This document shows positions 1,447 through 24,673 of a DNA stretch of 64,000 nucleotides, in pieces. Origin of the DNA: Tolypothrix bouteillei VB521301 (GTDB lineage: Bacteria; Cyanobacteriota; Cyanobacteriia; Cyanobacteriales; Nostocaceae); contig NZ_JHEG04000001.1 in NCBI RefSeq assembly GCF_000760695.4, positions 8,221,123 through 8,285,122 of the forward strand. Direction: 5' to 3'. The translations under genes and the position numbers were made by a program. Position 1 is the first letter of the stretch. Every line of letters begins with the position of its first letter. The notes under the pieces are model-generated. The model ran no database searches. It worked only from the letters and a program-made list of their open reading frames with translations, and had not been told where the DNA came from.

Positions 1447-3762
1447 TTAATCGATCGATTGAAAATTTGTTTTGAATCGTACAGTATAAATAATTACTAA
1501 TCCACTAGCAGTTACTATCAAAGCAAAAGCAGATGGAACTAATGGCAACCAAGCGCCCTGTAACACTAATAAACCCCAACAACTGCCGTATAAAACTGTA
1601 ATTGCGATCGCTTCTCCTAGTAGAATGCTTGCAGGTGACCTAAAAGACCAAGCGATCGCACCCCCGACTAATGACCAAAGCCCAATCCAGAGAATTTCTA
1701 GTGGTTTTGGCAACCACCAAATTAACGGTCTGCGATCCAATACACTGCTGAGAAGTTGACTGACCATATGTGCTTGAATTTCCAAACCAGTCAAACTTCG
1801 TACTGACCCTTGACCTCTACCAGAGGTTGTGCGCCAACGATGGTCGTTAAAACTGGGATCGGTTGTACCAATGAGAACGATGCGATCTTTGGCTAAATTG
1901 GGGTTGAATCCATCACTCAGTACTTCTTGCAGGGTAACTTTTCGAGCAATAGGTTCGGCGGCGCGGTAATTGAGCAATATTTGATGCCCGCTAGTATTAA
2001 TATTGTGATAACCACCTGTATTTTTTTCTAAAGTTTTAAAGACAGTTTGACCAATTCTTAAATACGACTCTGAAGTGAAACCGCTTTCAATTTTTTCCTT
2101 AAGTAAGTAATGTGTGGCTAATTGCCAACTAAAAGCATAACTGTTTTGGCATGGTTCGGCATGACTGACTGCTAAAACATGGCGGCGGAGAACATCATCA
2201 ACGTCTCTAACAACATTATTAAAACCTTGATTCTTTTTTGACACTTCTTTGGGCGGTGTAATGCCTGGGTTACCATACTTACAGATGGCAAAAAAGCTGT
2301 TGTTTTTCATCCCCATTGCTAAATCTCTGTTATTTGCTCCTATAGGGATTTCACGGTAAATATCTAAACCAATAGCTCGCGGTTGCGATCGCTCTAATTT
2401 AGCTAACAACTTCGTCAACGAGCGTTCGGACAGGGAAGCAGCCCCTCGCTCTGTAACAGGTTGAGATTGTACGTCTTGTTCGGTAATGGTAACAAGTAAA
2501 AGCCTTTCATCTTGTCCCTCATCGGGTCGCAACTGCATCAATTGGTCGTAAGATTGCAGTTCCCAAGATTGCAGAAAACCTAGCGATCTCATTCCAATTG
2601 TTAAACTCGTGACTAAAAGACTTGCCACAGTTACAGTTTTAATAGGAAGGACATTGAAGCGATTTTCAGGGATTTTGGTGTTTTGCTTAACCCAATTGCG
2701 ATCGAAAACGGCTTGATATATTGGGTTTTTAACAACTAACTGTCCTTGTTGCAAGTTCACTAACCCGGATAGACGTAATTCTAAATGCTCGCAATTATTT
2801 TTAGCAGGGATTTTGCCCCGTTTTAATATTTGTAAATATAGGTGTAATAACTTTTGCTGAAAACGAGAGCGTAAAATGCGATCGTGAATTGTCCGCAAAT
2901 GTTCCGGTCGGTCGTGAGATTCCCAATCATTAATAATTCGTGTTCGTACTAATCGATCGATTGATTCAGGAGTTTGTATTTCTGCTTCCTGAGAAATCAG
3001 CCAACATATTTTTTGTGTTAAAAAAGGTTGTCCGCCACTCCAGTAAAGAATTTCCTTTAAAGCAGTCTCAGGATGACTGACTTTGTCAAGTAATCCATCC
3101 ATTAAAGCTGCACTTTCCTGAAATTGAAAACCTTTCAATTCAATAGCTCGACCAATATTAAAAGGTGTTGCAAATTCATCTTTAATCAGATCTGAAGGGG
3201 TTGCTACTCCTAGCAGTACAAAAGAAAGTCTTCTATATTCTGACTTAATTGCTCGTTTATCATAACAATTACGAATAAAAGCGAAAAATTCATCTGTAGG
3301 AAAACTCAAACTGAGAATACTGTCAATTTCATCTATAAATATAACAATTTTTTTGTTAATTTGCTTTAATAAAATTGTTTCAATAAACTCTCCCAAACGT
3401 TGTATTGGCGATAAGTCATTTTGTTCGCGCAGCCAATTTCGACGGTTAACTTTTAGTTCAAATCCACTGATTAACTCTTGAATAATACCTCCATACCATT
3501 GCTGTGGTGTAATCTGTTGACTGCCAATTCCACTAAGTTCAATTTCTGCACAGCAAATTCCTTGTTCGTGCAGTTTAAACATGGTATGAATTCTTAGAGA
3601 AGACTTACCCATTTGGCGTGAATTGAGGACATAACAATATTCACCTGCTAACAGAGCGTTGTAGAGTTCAACATCTGCTTGTCTCTCAATATAGGTAGGA
3701 GCATCAGGAGGTAAACTTCCCCCTATTTGGTATTTGTAGTCAGAGTGGGGTACAGTACTCAT
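1447..3762 (-). CDS. AAA_35 (AAA-like) ATPase domain fused to CHASE2 sensor, membrane protein
   Basis: A 771-residue protein. Residues about 8-335 form an AAA-like domain (PF14516 type): a variant Walker A NSRQMGKSS (47-55), where Asn replaces the first Gly, and Walker B IVIFIDEID (139-147). A transmembrane segment (about 374-396) leads into an extracytoplasmic CHASE2 sensor domain (about 400-680) containing LLLVTITEQD and LIGTTDPSFNDHRW. Three transmembrane helices (about 690-765) close the protein. CHASE2 normally sits in front of kinase or cyclase outputs; here the ATPase-like module is N-terminal and no output enzyme is present. This suggests a membrane sensor driving an ATP-dependent conformational change. 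The DUF928 gene follows on the same strand. The ligand is unknown. Confidence 0.85.
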   Translation of the reverse strand: MSTVPHSDYKYQIGGSLPPDAPTYIERQADVELYNALLAGEYCYVLNSRQMGKSSLRIHTMFKLHEQGICCAEIELSGIGSQQITPQQWYGGIIQELISGFELKVNRRNWLREQNDLSPIQRLGEFIETILLKQINKKIVIFIDEIDSILSLSFPTDEFFAFIRNCYDKRAIKSEYRRLSFVLLGVATPSDLIKDEFATPFNIGRAIELKGFQFQESAALMDGLLDKVSHPETALKEILYWSGGQPFLTQKICWLISQEAEIQTPESIDRLVRTRIINDWESHDRPEHLRTIHDRILRSRFQQKLLHLYLQILKRGKIPAKNNCEHLELRLSGLVNLQQGQLVVKNPIYQAVFDRNWVKQNTKIPENRFNVLPIKTVTVASLLVTSLTIGMRSLGFLQSWELQSYDQLMQLRPDEGQDERLLLVTITEQDVQSQPVTERGAASLSERSLTKLLAKLERSQPRAIGLDIYREIPIGANNRDLAMGMKNNSFFAICKYGNPGITPPKEVSKKNQGFNNVVRDVDDVLRRHVLAVSHAEPCQNSYAFSWQLATHYLLKEKIESGFTSESYLRIGQTVFKTLEKNTGGYHNINTSGHQILLNYRAAEPIARKVTLQEVLSDGFNPNLAKDRIVLIGTTDPSFNDHRWRTTSGRGQGSVRSLTGLEIQAHMVSQLLSSVLDRRPLIWWLPKPLEILWIGLWSLVGGAIAWSFRSPASILLGEAIAITVLYGSCWGLLVLQGAWLPLVPSAFALIVTASGLVIIYTVRFKTNFQSID

Positions 3763-23222: not shown

Positions 23223-23272
23223 AGTCTCCTATTACTTTATTAAGTATTTTTACAGTTGAAGAAGAACGGAAG

Positions 23273-23307
23273 GTCAAAAAAGTAGGTGACATCCCCACTT
23301 TTTTGAC
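23273..23307 (+). terminator. Hairpin terminator after the DCC gene
   Basis: GTCAAAAAAGT (23273-23283) and ACTTTTTTGAC (23297-23307) are perfect 11-bp complements around a 13-nt loop, 50 bp after the stop codon. The A and T runs inside the stem make it able to end transcription in both directions. Confidence 0.65.
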
Positions 23308-23435
23308 TATTTTTTATCATGATAATTTTTGCTAAAGCACTTTTCCTACTTTTTGTACTTTTAAATCATTAAAAATATTTTCAAAAAAATTTCTTAATTT
23401 TTATATCAATACGAAAATATCCGGAGGGAAACCCG

Positions 23436-23546
23436 ATGACAGTTGTGAACTCACCGTTTTTCCTCGTGGCACTCTCCGCTTGGAAACACATCTTTTTTTC
23501 TAGTGGGCGCTACTCCCACAATACGCATTTTTATTTCAGAGGGTAG
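23436..23546 (+). CDS. Possible 36-residue peptide with strong ribosome-binding site
   Basis: A short frame starts with ATG at 23436 and ends with TAG at 23544-23546. A GGAGG (23423-23427) stands 8 nt before the ATG, a better Shine-Dalgarno than most genes in this window have. The peptide starts MTVVNSPFFLVALSAWKHIF and has a hydrophobic centre. I recognise no family. It lies in the 400-bp gap before the methyltransferase gene, on the opposite strand. It may be chance. Confidence 0.28.
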   Translation: MTVVNSPFFLVALSAWKHIFFSSGRYSHNTHFYFRG

Positions 23547-23624
23547 GAGGCAGAAAGCATAGCAGCATAGGTGCTTCCAGCAAGGTTGCCTTTCTTTGTA
23601 ATTTTTAGAAGGGAAAGGGAGTAG

Positions 23625-24512
23625 CTAAGATTCGTTGTTCTCAATATCTAAAATTCGCTTTCCGATCCATTCACTAATGCTTGGGACGATGGCGTTACCA
23701 AGGAGTCTCCCTCGACGACCGTCCAACCTGGGGGAAACCCCATAAGCCTCTCCCACTCTGTCCAAGTCAAGTTTCTCGCCACACAGTATTGGTCGATCTG
23801 AATGACCTCCTTGATGTCCTCCAGTTTGGGCACGTAGCGTGGGGCAGATGCTTTGTGCCAAGGTATACCCGAAGCCTCCGCGACGTTGTACCACAAGCGG
23901 AGGGTTTCCGAGAGCGCTTTGACGAAAATTGGATCTAGCTTTCTTCCGGCTCGATTCTCTCGTCGAAGTATCCCAAGACAATTCGCTGCTGTTAGTAAAG
24001 AAGTGATAGGCACGTTCCGATCTAAAACTTGCGATAAAGAATACTCTGTCTCGGTTGTGGGGTAAGCCCGCATGCACAACGTTGCACGATACCCATCCCC
24101 CCAAATACCCATTCTCTTCCAACGTGTTGATAACTGTCTCAAGAGCGTTTCCTTGCTCTGCTGAGAGTAACCCAGGCACATTTTCCATGACCAGCCAAGT
24201 TGGTTGAACTTCTCTAACCAATGCCATAAACGTGAAGAAAAGACCACTTCGCTCGCCTGAGAGCCCTCTTCGGTCTGTGTTGGCAGTGCTGATGTCTTGG
24301 CATGGCCATCCCGCGCACCAAAGTTCAGAGGTAGGGATAGTTGTTGAATTGAGGGTCGTGATGTCGTCATGAAAAGGTACGTGTGGCCAGTGGCGCTTGA
24401 GTATTTGTTGACAGAAAGGATCTATTTCACACTGAAAAACAACACGCATTCCCGCTCTTTCAAATCCGAGATCGAAACCACCAATACCAGCAAAGAACGA
24501 GGAAACACGCAT
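23625..24512 (-). CDS. DNA (cytosine-5-)-methyltransferase
   Basis: From the ATG at 24512 (MRVSSFFAGIGGFDLGF) the protein has 295 residues; an upstream extension is rejected because C5 enzymes begin at motif I. Motifs in order: I FAGIGGFDLGF (7-17), II QCEID (27-31), IV GWPCQDIS with catalytic Cys71, VI MENV (109-112), VIII HNRDRVFFIAS (152-162), and X LLGNAIVPSISEWIG (270-284). The short region between VIII and X (GGFGYTLAQSICPTLRAQTG and following) acts as the target-recognition part. The target sequence is unknown, and no restriction enzyme gene is visible nearby, so it looks solitary. A second reading frame is open through most of the gene. The gene is visibly richer in G+C than its neighbours. 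Confidence 0.9.
   Translation of the reverse strand: MRVSSFFAGIGGFDLGFERAGMRVVFQCEIDPFCQQILKRHWPHVPFHDDITTLNSTTIPTSELWCAGWPCQDISTANTDRRGLSGERSGLFFTFMALVREVQPTWLVMENVPGLLSAEQGNALETVINTLEENGYLGGWVSCNVVHAGLPHNRDRVFFIASFRSERAYHFFTNSSELSWDTSTRESSRKKARSNFRQSALGNPPLVVQRRGGFGYTLAQSICPTLRAQTGGHQGGHSDRPILCGEKLDLDRVGEAYGVSPRLDGRRGRLLGNAIVPSISEWIGKRILDIENNES
23648..24370 (-). CDS. Long open frame embedded (+1) in the methyltransferase gene
   Basis: A 240-codon frame lies on the same strand, shifted by one base, entirely inside the methyltransferase gene. It reads LTWTEWERLMGFPPGW at residues 201-216, a block of the LTxxExxRLxGFPxxW type found in C5 methyltransferases themselves, although here it is out of frame with the main enzyme. 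It also has YSLSQVLDRNVP and CLGILRRENRAGRKLDP, blocks I associate from memory with companion ORFs next to phage and prophage methyltransferases. No Shine-Dalgarno precedes its ATG at 24370. It may be a real overlapping gene, a remnant of a frameshifted ancestor, or a by-product of strong codon constraint. See findings. Confidence 0.45.
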   Translation of the reverse strand: MTTSRPSIQQLSLPLNFGARDGHAKTSALPTQTEEGSQASEVVFSSRLWHWLEKFNQLGWSWKMCLGYSQQSKETLLRQLSTRWKRMGIWGDGYRATLCMRAYPTTETEYSLSQVLDRNVPITSLLTAANCLGILRRENRAGRKLDPIFVKALSETLRLWYNVAEASGIPWHKASAPRYVPKLEDIKEVIQIDQYCVARNLTWTEWERLMGFPPGWTVVEGDSLVTPSSQALVNGSESEF

Positions 24513-24673
24513 AGTTACAATGAATTTAGGCTTAACCGACAAGTATGGGAACCCATACCATCTGGAACCTTTCCAAAAAGCCAGCGAAATCGGCTCCATC
24601 TGAAAATCATCCCATACCACTTACCCCAAAGTACTGAGTGTATAATAGCAAACGAATAATCTCACAGAGCCAA

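Follow-up and report, generated by a model that had tools for sequence, protein, structure and literature searches.

C5-cytosine DNA methyltransferases composed of two polypeptides are represented by M.EcoHK31I (YGGCCR) and M.AquI (CYCGRG). As described in a passage of PMC3404938, the larger subunit of M.EcoHK31I comprises motifs I–VIII and X together with the predicted target domain, and the smaller one features only motif IX; in M.AquI, motifs IX and X are located in the small chain. Furthermore, an excerpt of PMC11855218 reports that phage methylases of the ShiLan type contain a second protein, an HNH insert, hidden out of frame within the methylase gene. In this study, a pair of nested reading frames, referred to as alpha and beta, was analyzed in a stretch of 64,000 nucleotides from the cyanobacterium Tolypothrix bouteillei VB521301 (contig NZ_JHEG04000001.1, positions 8,221,123 to 8,285,122; hereafter the window, in which positions are counted from its first letter). 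The genes of M.EcoHK31I are reportedly nested in different frames, and its chains are 309 and 176 amino acids long.

The locus very probably encodes one two-protein C5-cytosine DNA methyltransferase, produced from nested genes in the manner of M.EcoHK31I and an orphan in this genome. This reading builds on the following observations: the second coding frame is conserved, both frames are under selection, the methyltransferase motifs are split between them, and relatives have an HNH endonuclease neighbor. As is reported for the small M.EcoHK31I gene, beta is encoded inside alpha in another frame; the beta frame is under selection. Beta differs in length (240 versus 176 amino acids), the host is different and the target probably so, and the two systems are likened by layout, not by sequence. 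The nested gene of a proteobacterial relative (L022) found no match in the E. coli genomes searched. Judged by layout, the window pair may work like M.EcoHK31I, as alpha contains motifs I–VIII and X and beta motif IX, which corresponds to the distribution given in the passage of PMC3404938. With M.AquI, as portrayed there, the pair shares its nature as a C5 methyltransferase of two polypeptides, but here motif X remains in alpha and one gene lies within the other; a split of the M.AquI type was rejected, since motif X lies in alpha and motif IX in beta. As in the ShiLan-type genes of the PMC11855218 excerpt, a second out-of-frame protein lies inside a methylase gene; unlike the inserts described there, the nested open reading frame (ORF) overlaps the conserved catalytic motifs themselves.

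Purifying selection on two overlapping frames

By its sequence, alpha is classified as the large subunit of a C5-cytosine DNA methyltransferase, since it matches PF00145 above the curated cut-off (E = 4.9e-47; 161.4 bits versus a cut-off of 22; residues 37–206 only) and contains what we take to be motifs I–VIII and X. The catalytic half with motifs I–VIII (24003..24512, minus strand) was delimited by this match and by the alignment with M.HhaI, residues 3–175 of which correspond to alpha 28–203 (E = 1.6e-29). Motif X (RLLGNAIVPSISEWIG; 23661..23708, minus strand) was read from the sequence, and matches to phrog_363 and to the PADLOC MTase_II model reach over it. The alpha ORF comprises 331 codons (23625–24620, minus strand) and can be annotated with 331 amino acids from GTG 24620. 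Since the relatives L003, L015, L016, and L029 carry stops upstream of Met37, alpha most likely begins at this residue (ATG 24512) and would thus be 295 residues long (23625..24512).

The beta ORF extends on the minus strand from an ATG at 24370 to a stop ending at 23648 and comprises 240 codons in the +1 frame relative to the 331-codon ORF, as a preliminary description of this DNA had correctly located it. Its span amounts to 73% of that ORF and to 81% of alpha when the latter is counted from Met37 (295 residues), against about 80% stated in the description, and the three peptides quoted there (LTWTEWERLMGFPPGWT, YSLSQVLDRNVP, and CLGILRRENRAGRKLDP) are all present in the beta frame. For an estimate of chance, alpha was recoded with random synonymous codons in 20,000 trials, using the codon usage of 12 window genes or of alpha itself. 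With the window usage, a mean of 10.0 stops fell into the beta span and 0 of 20,000 recodings left it open, in line with the preliminary judgment that the frame is unlikely by chance. Alpha's own codons, on which beta has already left its mark, resulted in a mean of 6.7 stops and 11 open spans in 20,000. The longest open +1 run amounted to 257 codons in alpha and to 81 at most in 34 other long ORFs of the window.

Relatives were collected with alpha as the query, regardless of beta, yielding 30 loci in reference genomes (numbered with the prefix L). Five of these (L025–L028 and L030), being truncated or frame-broken, were set aside before counting, and the 25 loci with an intact alpha gave, together with the window, 26 genes. 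The beta span was free of stops in 24 of the 26, with two stops in all; both stop-bearing genes (L021 and L024) retain the entire motif IX, and the stop in L024 represents the end of a shorter beta just after this motif. The beta ATG was found at one conserved site in 24/26 genes.

Selection was assessed in 23 cyanobacterial genes, the window included, with changes counted by their effect in both frames. For the beta frame, NN/NS was 0.26 (95% by codon bootstrap 0.19–0.34) and SN/SS was lower still, but with a saturated SS class; the unused +2 control frame reached an NN/NS of 2.6. At the four-fold sites of alpha, differences dropped from 0.626 outside to 0.206 inside the overlap, being lower inside in 248 of 253 pairs. 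Purifying selection acts on both the alpha and the beta frame, and the true overlapping gene pair that had been considered in the preliminary description is thereby borne out. Frequent +1 stops in homologues or a near-neutral ratio of nonsynonymous to synonymous changes (dN/dS) in the embedded frame, named there as arguments against a gene, contrast with the 2 stops in 26 genes and the value of 0.26 obtained here. A chance open frame was rejected on the basis of the recoding trials and dN/dS. A pseudogene or recent frameshift was likewise rejected, because both frames are selected and the true broken copies, i.e., the five loci set aside, are truncated or frame-broken.

In total, 177 beta homologues were detected at E ≤ 0.01, 120 of them being listed. 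The nested pair is rare (2/386 cyanobacterial genomes, that of the window included) and occurs in cyanobacteria, proteobacteria, and viral contigs (L051–L053, the last one partial). Locus L050, from the class of Luteimonas, features a nested pair (1242–2150 and 1522–2070) of 302 and 182 amino acids with motif IX in the nested frame only, which is close in size to the M.EcoHK31I chains (309 and 176 amino acids); its neighboring ORF (2151–3059) matched no Pfam family above the cut-off.

Motif IX in the nested frame

Beta carries its putative motif IX (VARNLTWTEWERLMGFPPGWT) at 23720..23782 (minus strand). Among 51 aligned betas, R199, N200, L201, E205, L209, M210, G211, F212, P213, W216, and T217 are invariant, and the C-terminal consensus reads VARNLTWxECExLMGFPxGWT. 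The block LTWTEWERLMGFPPGW resembles C5-methyltransferase motif IX, which has the pattern R.LT..E..RLxGFP. The preliminary description had rightly perceived this block as C5-methyltransferase-like, but had assigned it to a segment before motif X, which has to be corrected to motif IX itself. Moreover, the sequence DRVGEAYGVSPRL, held there to be a good family sequence of the main frame's own, is not a competing motif, but merely the alpha-frame reading of the motif IX DNA.

Motif IX in beta and motif X in alpha are 77 nt apart in 26/26 genes. As this spacing is not a multiple of three, the alpha frame therefore reads DRVGEAYGVSPRL over the motif IX DNA. For one-chain relatives, in which both motifs lie in frame, the distance was obtained for 37 of 39 genes and ranged between 90 and 147 nt. 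Two compensating old frameshifts on either side of motif IX would result in an out-of-frame spacing such as these 77 nt, which is consistent with the old frameshifts suggested in the preliminary description.

Profile comparisons revealed the same division. Alpha matched the PADLOC MTase_II model PDLC03272 over profile positions 75–391 and beta at 325–357; for phrog_116, the corresponding positions were 206–492 and 432–460. The profile positions of beta fall between the blocks of alpha. Furthermore, phrog_16528 was matched by 51/51 betas at E ≤ 0.1 (best value 1.1e-5), and for the window beta neither Pfam (E ≤ 0.1) nor NCBIfam (E ≤ 1) yielded a match.

The nested frame of one-chain phage methyltransferases

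The phage relative Rctr41k encodes motif IX in alpha, yet possesses a nested ORF in the +1 frame that is similar to the front part of beta. Because of this nested ORF, present despite its own motif IX, viral loci were gathered with the Rctr41k alpha; the best 80 of at least 599 relatives and Rctr41k itself formed a set of 81 genes, which are those closest to Rctr41k and include some near-copies. Open +1 stretches of 100 codons or more were found in 79/81 loci and +2 stretches of that length in 3/81. In the two loci without a long +1 stretch (L097 and L098), the nested ORF is split in two by an insert that contains a separate ORF in the +2 frame. This insert (2426–3109 in both loci) is open in the alpha frame, and its +2 frame holds an ORF of 227 codons, in which an HNH-like arrangement (HHIN...N...N) was noticed by eye, recalling the hidden HNH inserts of the PMC11855218 excerpt; in Pfam, the L097 insert ORF obtained just two helix-turn-helix matches, both below the cut-off.

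Forty-one of the 81 genes contain a strict in-frame motif IX, and 39 distinct ones were analyzed further. Over codons 55–205, +1 identity was 0.379 versus 0.196 after recoding, and 20 stops were counted versus 190 expected, with little +1 signal in the flanks (z 2.2 and 1.2). Over the same codons, +2 identity was also raised (0.267 versus 0.180; z 38), yet the stops remained at 272 versus 268 expected, as constraint on the third positions of alpha would give. Based on the 214 of 741 pairs that are at least 60% identical, NN/NS was 0.48 (0.39–0.59) in the +1 frame and 1.64 in the +2 control.

In an HHalign comparison of window-type betas with the nested phage ORFs, a value of 99.7% was achieved (E 2.6e-25, 159 columns), which indicates that the first 160 residues of beta are homologous to the +1 ORF nested in one-chain phage C5 methyltransferases. 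The module EYSLSQVLDRNVPITSLLTAANCLGILRRENRAGRKLDP (23930..24046, minus strand) is common to them. Together with the occurrence of the nested motif in phage records, this homology supports the earlier association of the embedded peptides with companion ORFs of phage methyltransferases. The nested family corresponds to phrog_16143, which was matched by 46/51 phage nested ORFs at E ≤ 0.001 and by the window beta at E 4e-4, the homology of the latter extending over SWK...SLSQVL...ILRR in the +1 register of a C5 methyltransferase; the family obtained no useful Pfam match and no NCBIfam match. The window beta thus shares register and place in the gene with phrog_16143, ORF14 of Streptococcus phage MM1, and the nested ORF of P1 dmt, but the phage nested ORFs end before motif IX, which the phage alpha keeps in its own frame. 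Because alpha is homologous between the two groups as well, a recoding test was also carried out across them. Over alpha codons 170–205, identity between the groups was 0.336 in the +1 frame (null 0.121), 0.135 in alpha, and 0.113 in the +2 frame (null 0.073); directly following motif VIII, conservation is higher in the nested frame than in alpha.

The nested motif matched 168 phage records, 60 of them being listed. Ten listed records were opened, and in eight of them (P1, CobraSix, MM1, NatCom_6238, CP-T1, Ro157c2YLVW, PhAER-6, and Lelie) the motif lies in the +1 register of a longer annotated coding sequence (CDS); all seven of these CDSs run against Pfam (all but that of Ro157c2YLVW) match PF00145. 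In Thibault, the methylase is in pieces and the nested motif sits in a small CDS by itself; the Javan355 match is overlain by a CDS on the opposite strand. Among the 60 matches listed, only MM1 has two features under the match, its nested ORF being annotated as 'putative methyltransferase'. In P1 dmt, whose own frame includes motif IX, the nested +1 ORF has 163 open codons (L161:2225-2713), its first ATG lying at NC_005856.1 position 66713, and in 8/8 P1-like genes it is open over 163–165 codons, different 3' ends included. DNA of the dmt type was detected in 493 of 5,426 complete E. coli genomes, and the 30 dmt rows among the matches listed name a methyltransferase and no nested gene. No description of a nested +1 ORF in one-chain phage methyltransferases was found in the literature searched.

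Further observations concern the architecture of these genes. In L231–L233, the 3' end of the nested ORF is replaced by a different sequence, with the motif kept. P1 dmt and CobraSix combine C5 and N6-adenine methyltransferase domains according to Pfam. In 11 viral loci (L122, L123, L128, L133, L135, L137, L141, L143, L155, L158, and L160), alpha ends at 239–314 codons, motifs IX–X follow further down in another frame, and the nested ORF is kept; these represent tandem-split or interrupted genes.

Genomic context, proposed model and alternatives

A divergent HNH endonuclease gene near alpha was found in 21/30 relatives by tblastn with the HNH gene located upstream of alpha in L003. Three of these matches are partial (L005, L018, and L021), and some of the nine loci without a match have little upstream sequence (L012, L020, and L025). 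Seven HNH neighbors were compared with Pfam, and 7/7 matched HNH models. L013 encodes a BsuBI/PstI-type endonuclease in place of the HNH protein, and L019 has a close relative of this gene. In both loci (L013:919-3002 and L019:836-2999), a second C5 methyltransferase, identified by Pfam in L013 and by a tblastn match in L019, and the BsuBI/PstI-type endonuclease lie directly upstream of the nested pair; L014 also showed a match to a second C5 methyltransferase, but has an HNH neighbor. An endonuclease beside the methylase, as in type II restriction-modification systems, is thus found in relatives and not in the window, where neither the L003 HNH gene nor the L013 BsuBI/PstI gene had a tblastn match; in the rest of this genome, the HNH gene found just weak matches of about 55 residues. 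Because the HNH gene is nearby in most relatives, the nested pair probably provides the methylase in a type II restriction-modification system, with the HNH gene as the likely cognate restriction enzyme. Because no such endonuclease gene adjoins the pair in T. bouteillei, it appears to be an orphan methylase in this genome. The window neighbors of alpha encode a GNAT acetyltransferase and a DCC1-like protein, and about 400 bases after the alpha stop (23223–23624) contain no assigned gene.

In the proposed model, alpha would provide motifs I–VIII and X. Beta would start at its own ATG inside alpha, be read in the +1 frame, and supply motif IX behind a domain that may dock on alpha. Both chains would be translated and assemble into an active enzyme, as the passage of PMC3404938 reports for M.EcoHK31I. 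In evolutionary terms, the nested +1 ORF would already have been present in one-chain phage-type methyltransferases, compensating frameshifts on both sides of motif IX may have moved this motif from alpha into the nested ORF, and its capture would make the nested ORF indispensable. In one-chain enzymes, the nested ORF most likely encodes an accessory chain, because it was seen mainly overlapping this enzyme class and because the split relatives carry a catalytic-domain motif in it. We consider it likely, with less confidence than for the window pair itself, that an entire class of phage-type C5 methyltransferase genes, those of one-chain enzymes and P1 dmt included, carries an unrecognized +1 gene for an accessory subunit, and that splits of the M.EcoHK31I type are derived forms that arose by motif IX capture, possibly repeatedly.

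Locus L108 looks like such a capture: a standard RRLTPAECERLQGFPDGWT follows the nested module in the nested frame, and motif X is located in alpha. In a tree of 79 genes (16 split and 63 one-chain; L053, L060, L080, L097, and L098 as well as 16 of the 26 split genes were left out), L108 falls among the one-chain genes with a support of 82. Three label changes are needed in this tree, and the starred branches force one; repeated capture is suggested.

Several observations weigh against these interpretations. The tree forces no more than one origin of the split. The stop at beta residue 7 of L021 is soon followed by an ATG, and the beta of this locus must therefore start later; L010 and L024 have ACG at the site of the beta ATG, with alternative ATGs four codons upstream and further in, respectively. 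No Shine-Dalgarno-like sequence was visible by eye before the beta ATG of the window. Taken singly, the window beta matched methyltransferase profiles weakly (PHROGs E 0.0004–0.08, with 0.06 for phrog_116; PADLOC 0.007). AlphaFold, run on beta as a single chain with 73 sequences, reached a mean pLDDT of 68; the region from about residue 111 to 210 scored 85–97 and the N-terminal half was poor. A structural search with this model returned no informative match. Finally, the recoding null takes no account of relatedness among the genes.

The last point bears on the alternative that the +1 frame is no gene, but a by-product of alpha's conserved protein and codon bias, since some conservation is to be expected in the other frames of any conserved gene. 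Accordingly, a control family of 30 C5-methyltransferase genes showed an identity excess of z ~10–11 in both other frames, as relatedness alone gives; its +2 stops were depleted (370 versus 422 expected, fewer than in any of the 60 shuffles), and 4/30 genes had an open stretch of at least 100 codons in the +1 frame, as had 4/30 in the +2 frame. In the phage set, the +2 frame has its identity excess as well, and just 45/81 genes individually exceed the recoding null (P < 0.01). Nevertheless, this explanation is extremely improbable: the phage +1 signal is far larger than that of the control family, whose +1 stops (308 versus 303 expected) lack the strong depletion found in the 26 split genes and the 39 phage genes, dN/dS differs between the frames, and the region behind motif VIII shows higher conservation between the groups in the nested frame than in alpha.

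It is also quite improbable that programmed frameshifting produces beta as an extension of the alpha C-terminus and that beta is not translated from its own start. The missing Shine-Dalgarno-like sequence would fit such a mechanism, and two metagenomic proteins (P0070 and P0092) pass from alpha to beta within a single frame, with the junctions at almost the same position, making a joined product conceivable; these may be natural fusions, decaying copies or assembly errors. However, a frameshifted alpha would lose motif X, beta is conserved along the motif IV–VIII region of alpha, where a frameshift product would lose catalytic motifs, and the beta ATG at its one conserved site in nearly all genes makes a programmed frameshift needless. 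Equally hard to sustain is a nested protein that is real but no enzyme subunit, for example a regulator or a protein acting on a host or phage factor, with an incidental likeness to motif IX. The nested homologues of one-chain phage enzymes lack motif IX, implying that the family has some function apart from it; the invariant residues of motif IX, its fixed distance from motif X in all split genes, and the same split reported for M.EcoHK31I in the passage of PMC3404938 argue for a subunit instead.

The nested pair represents a case in which an essential motif appears to have changed its reading frame. To our knowledge, bacteria only rarely possess long overlaps on the same strand whose two frames both specify conserved portions of a single enzyme. 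The wider interpretation, including the one-chain enzymes, is directly testable in phage P1, whose dmt gene has already been studied. If the nested protein is real, many of the methyltransferase genes dealt with in methylome and restriction work would encode a second chain that clones and models have so far omitted.
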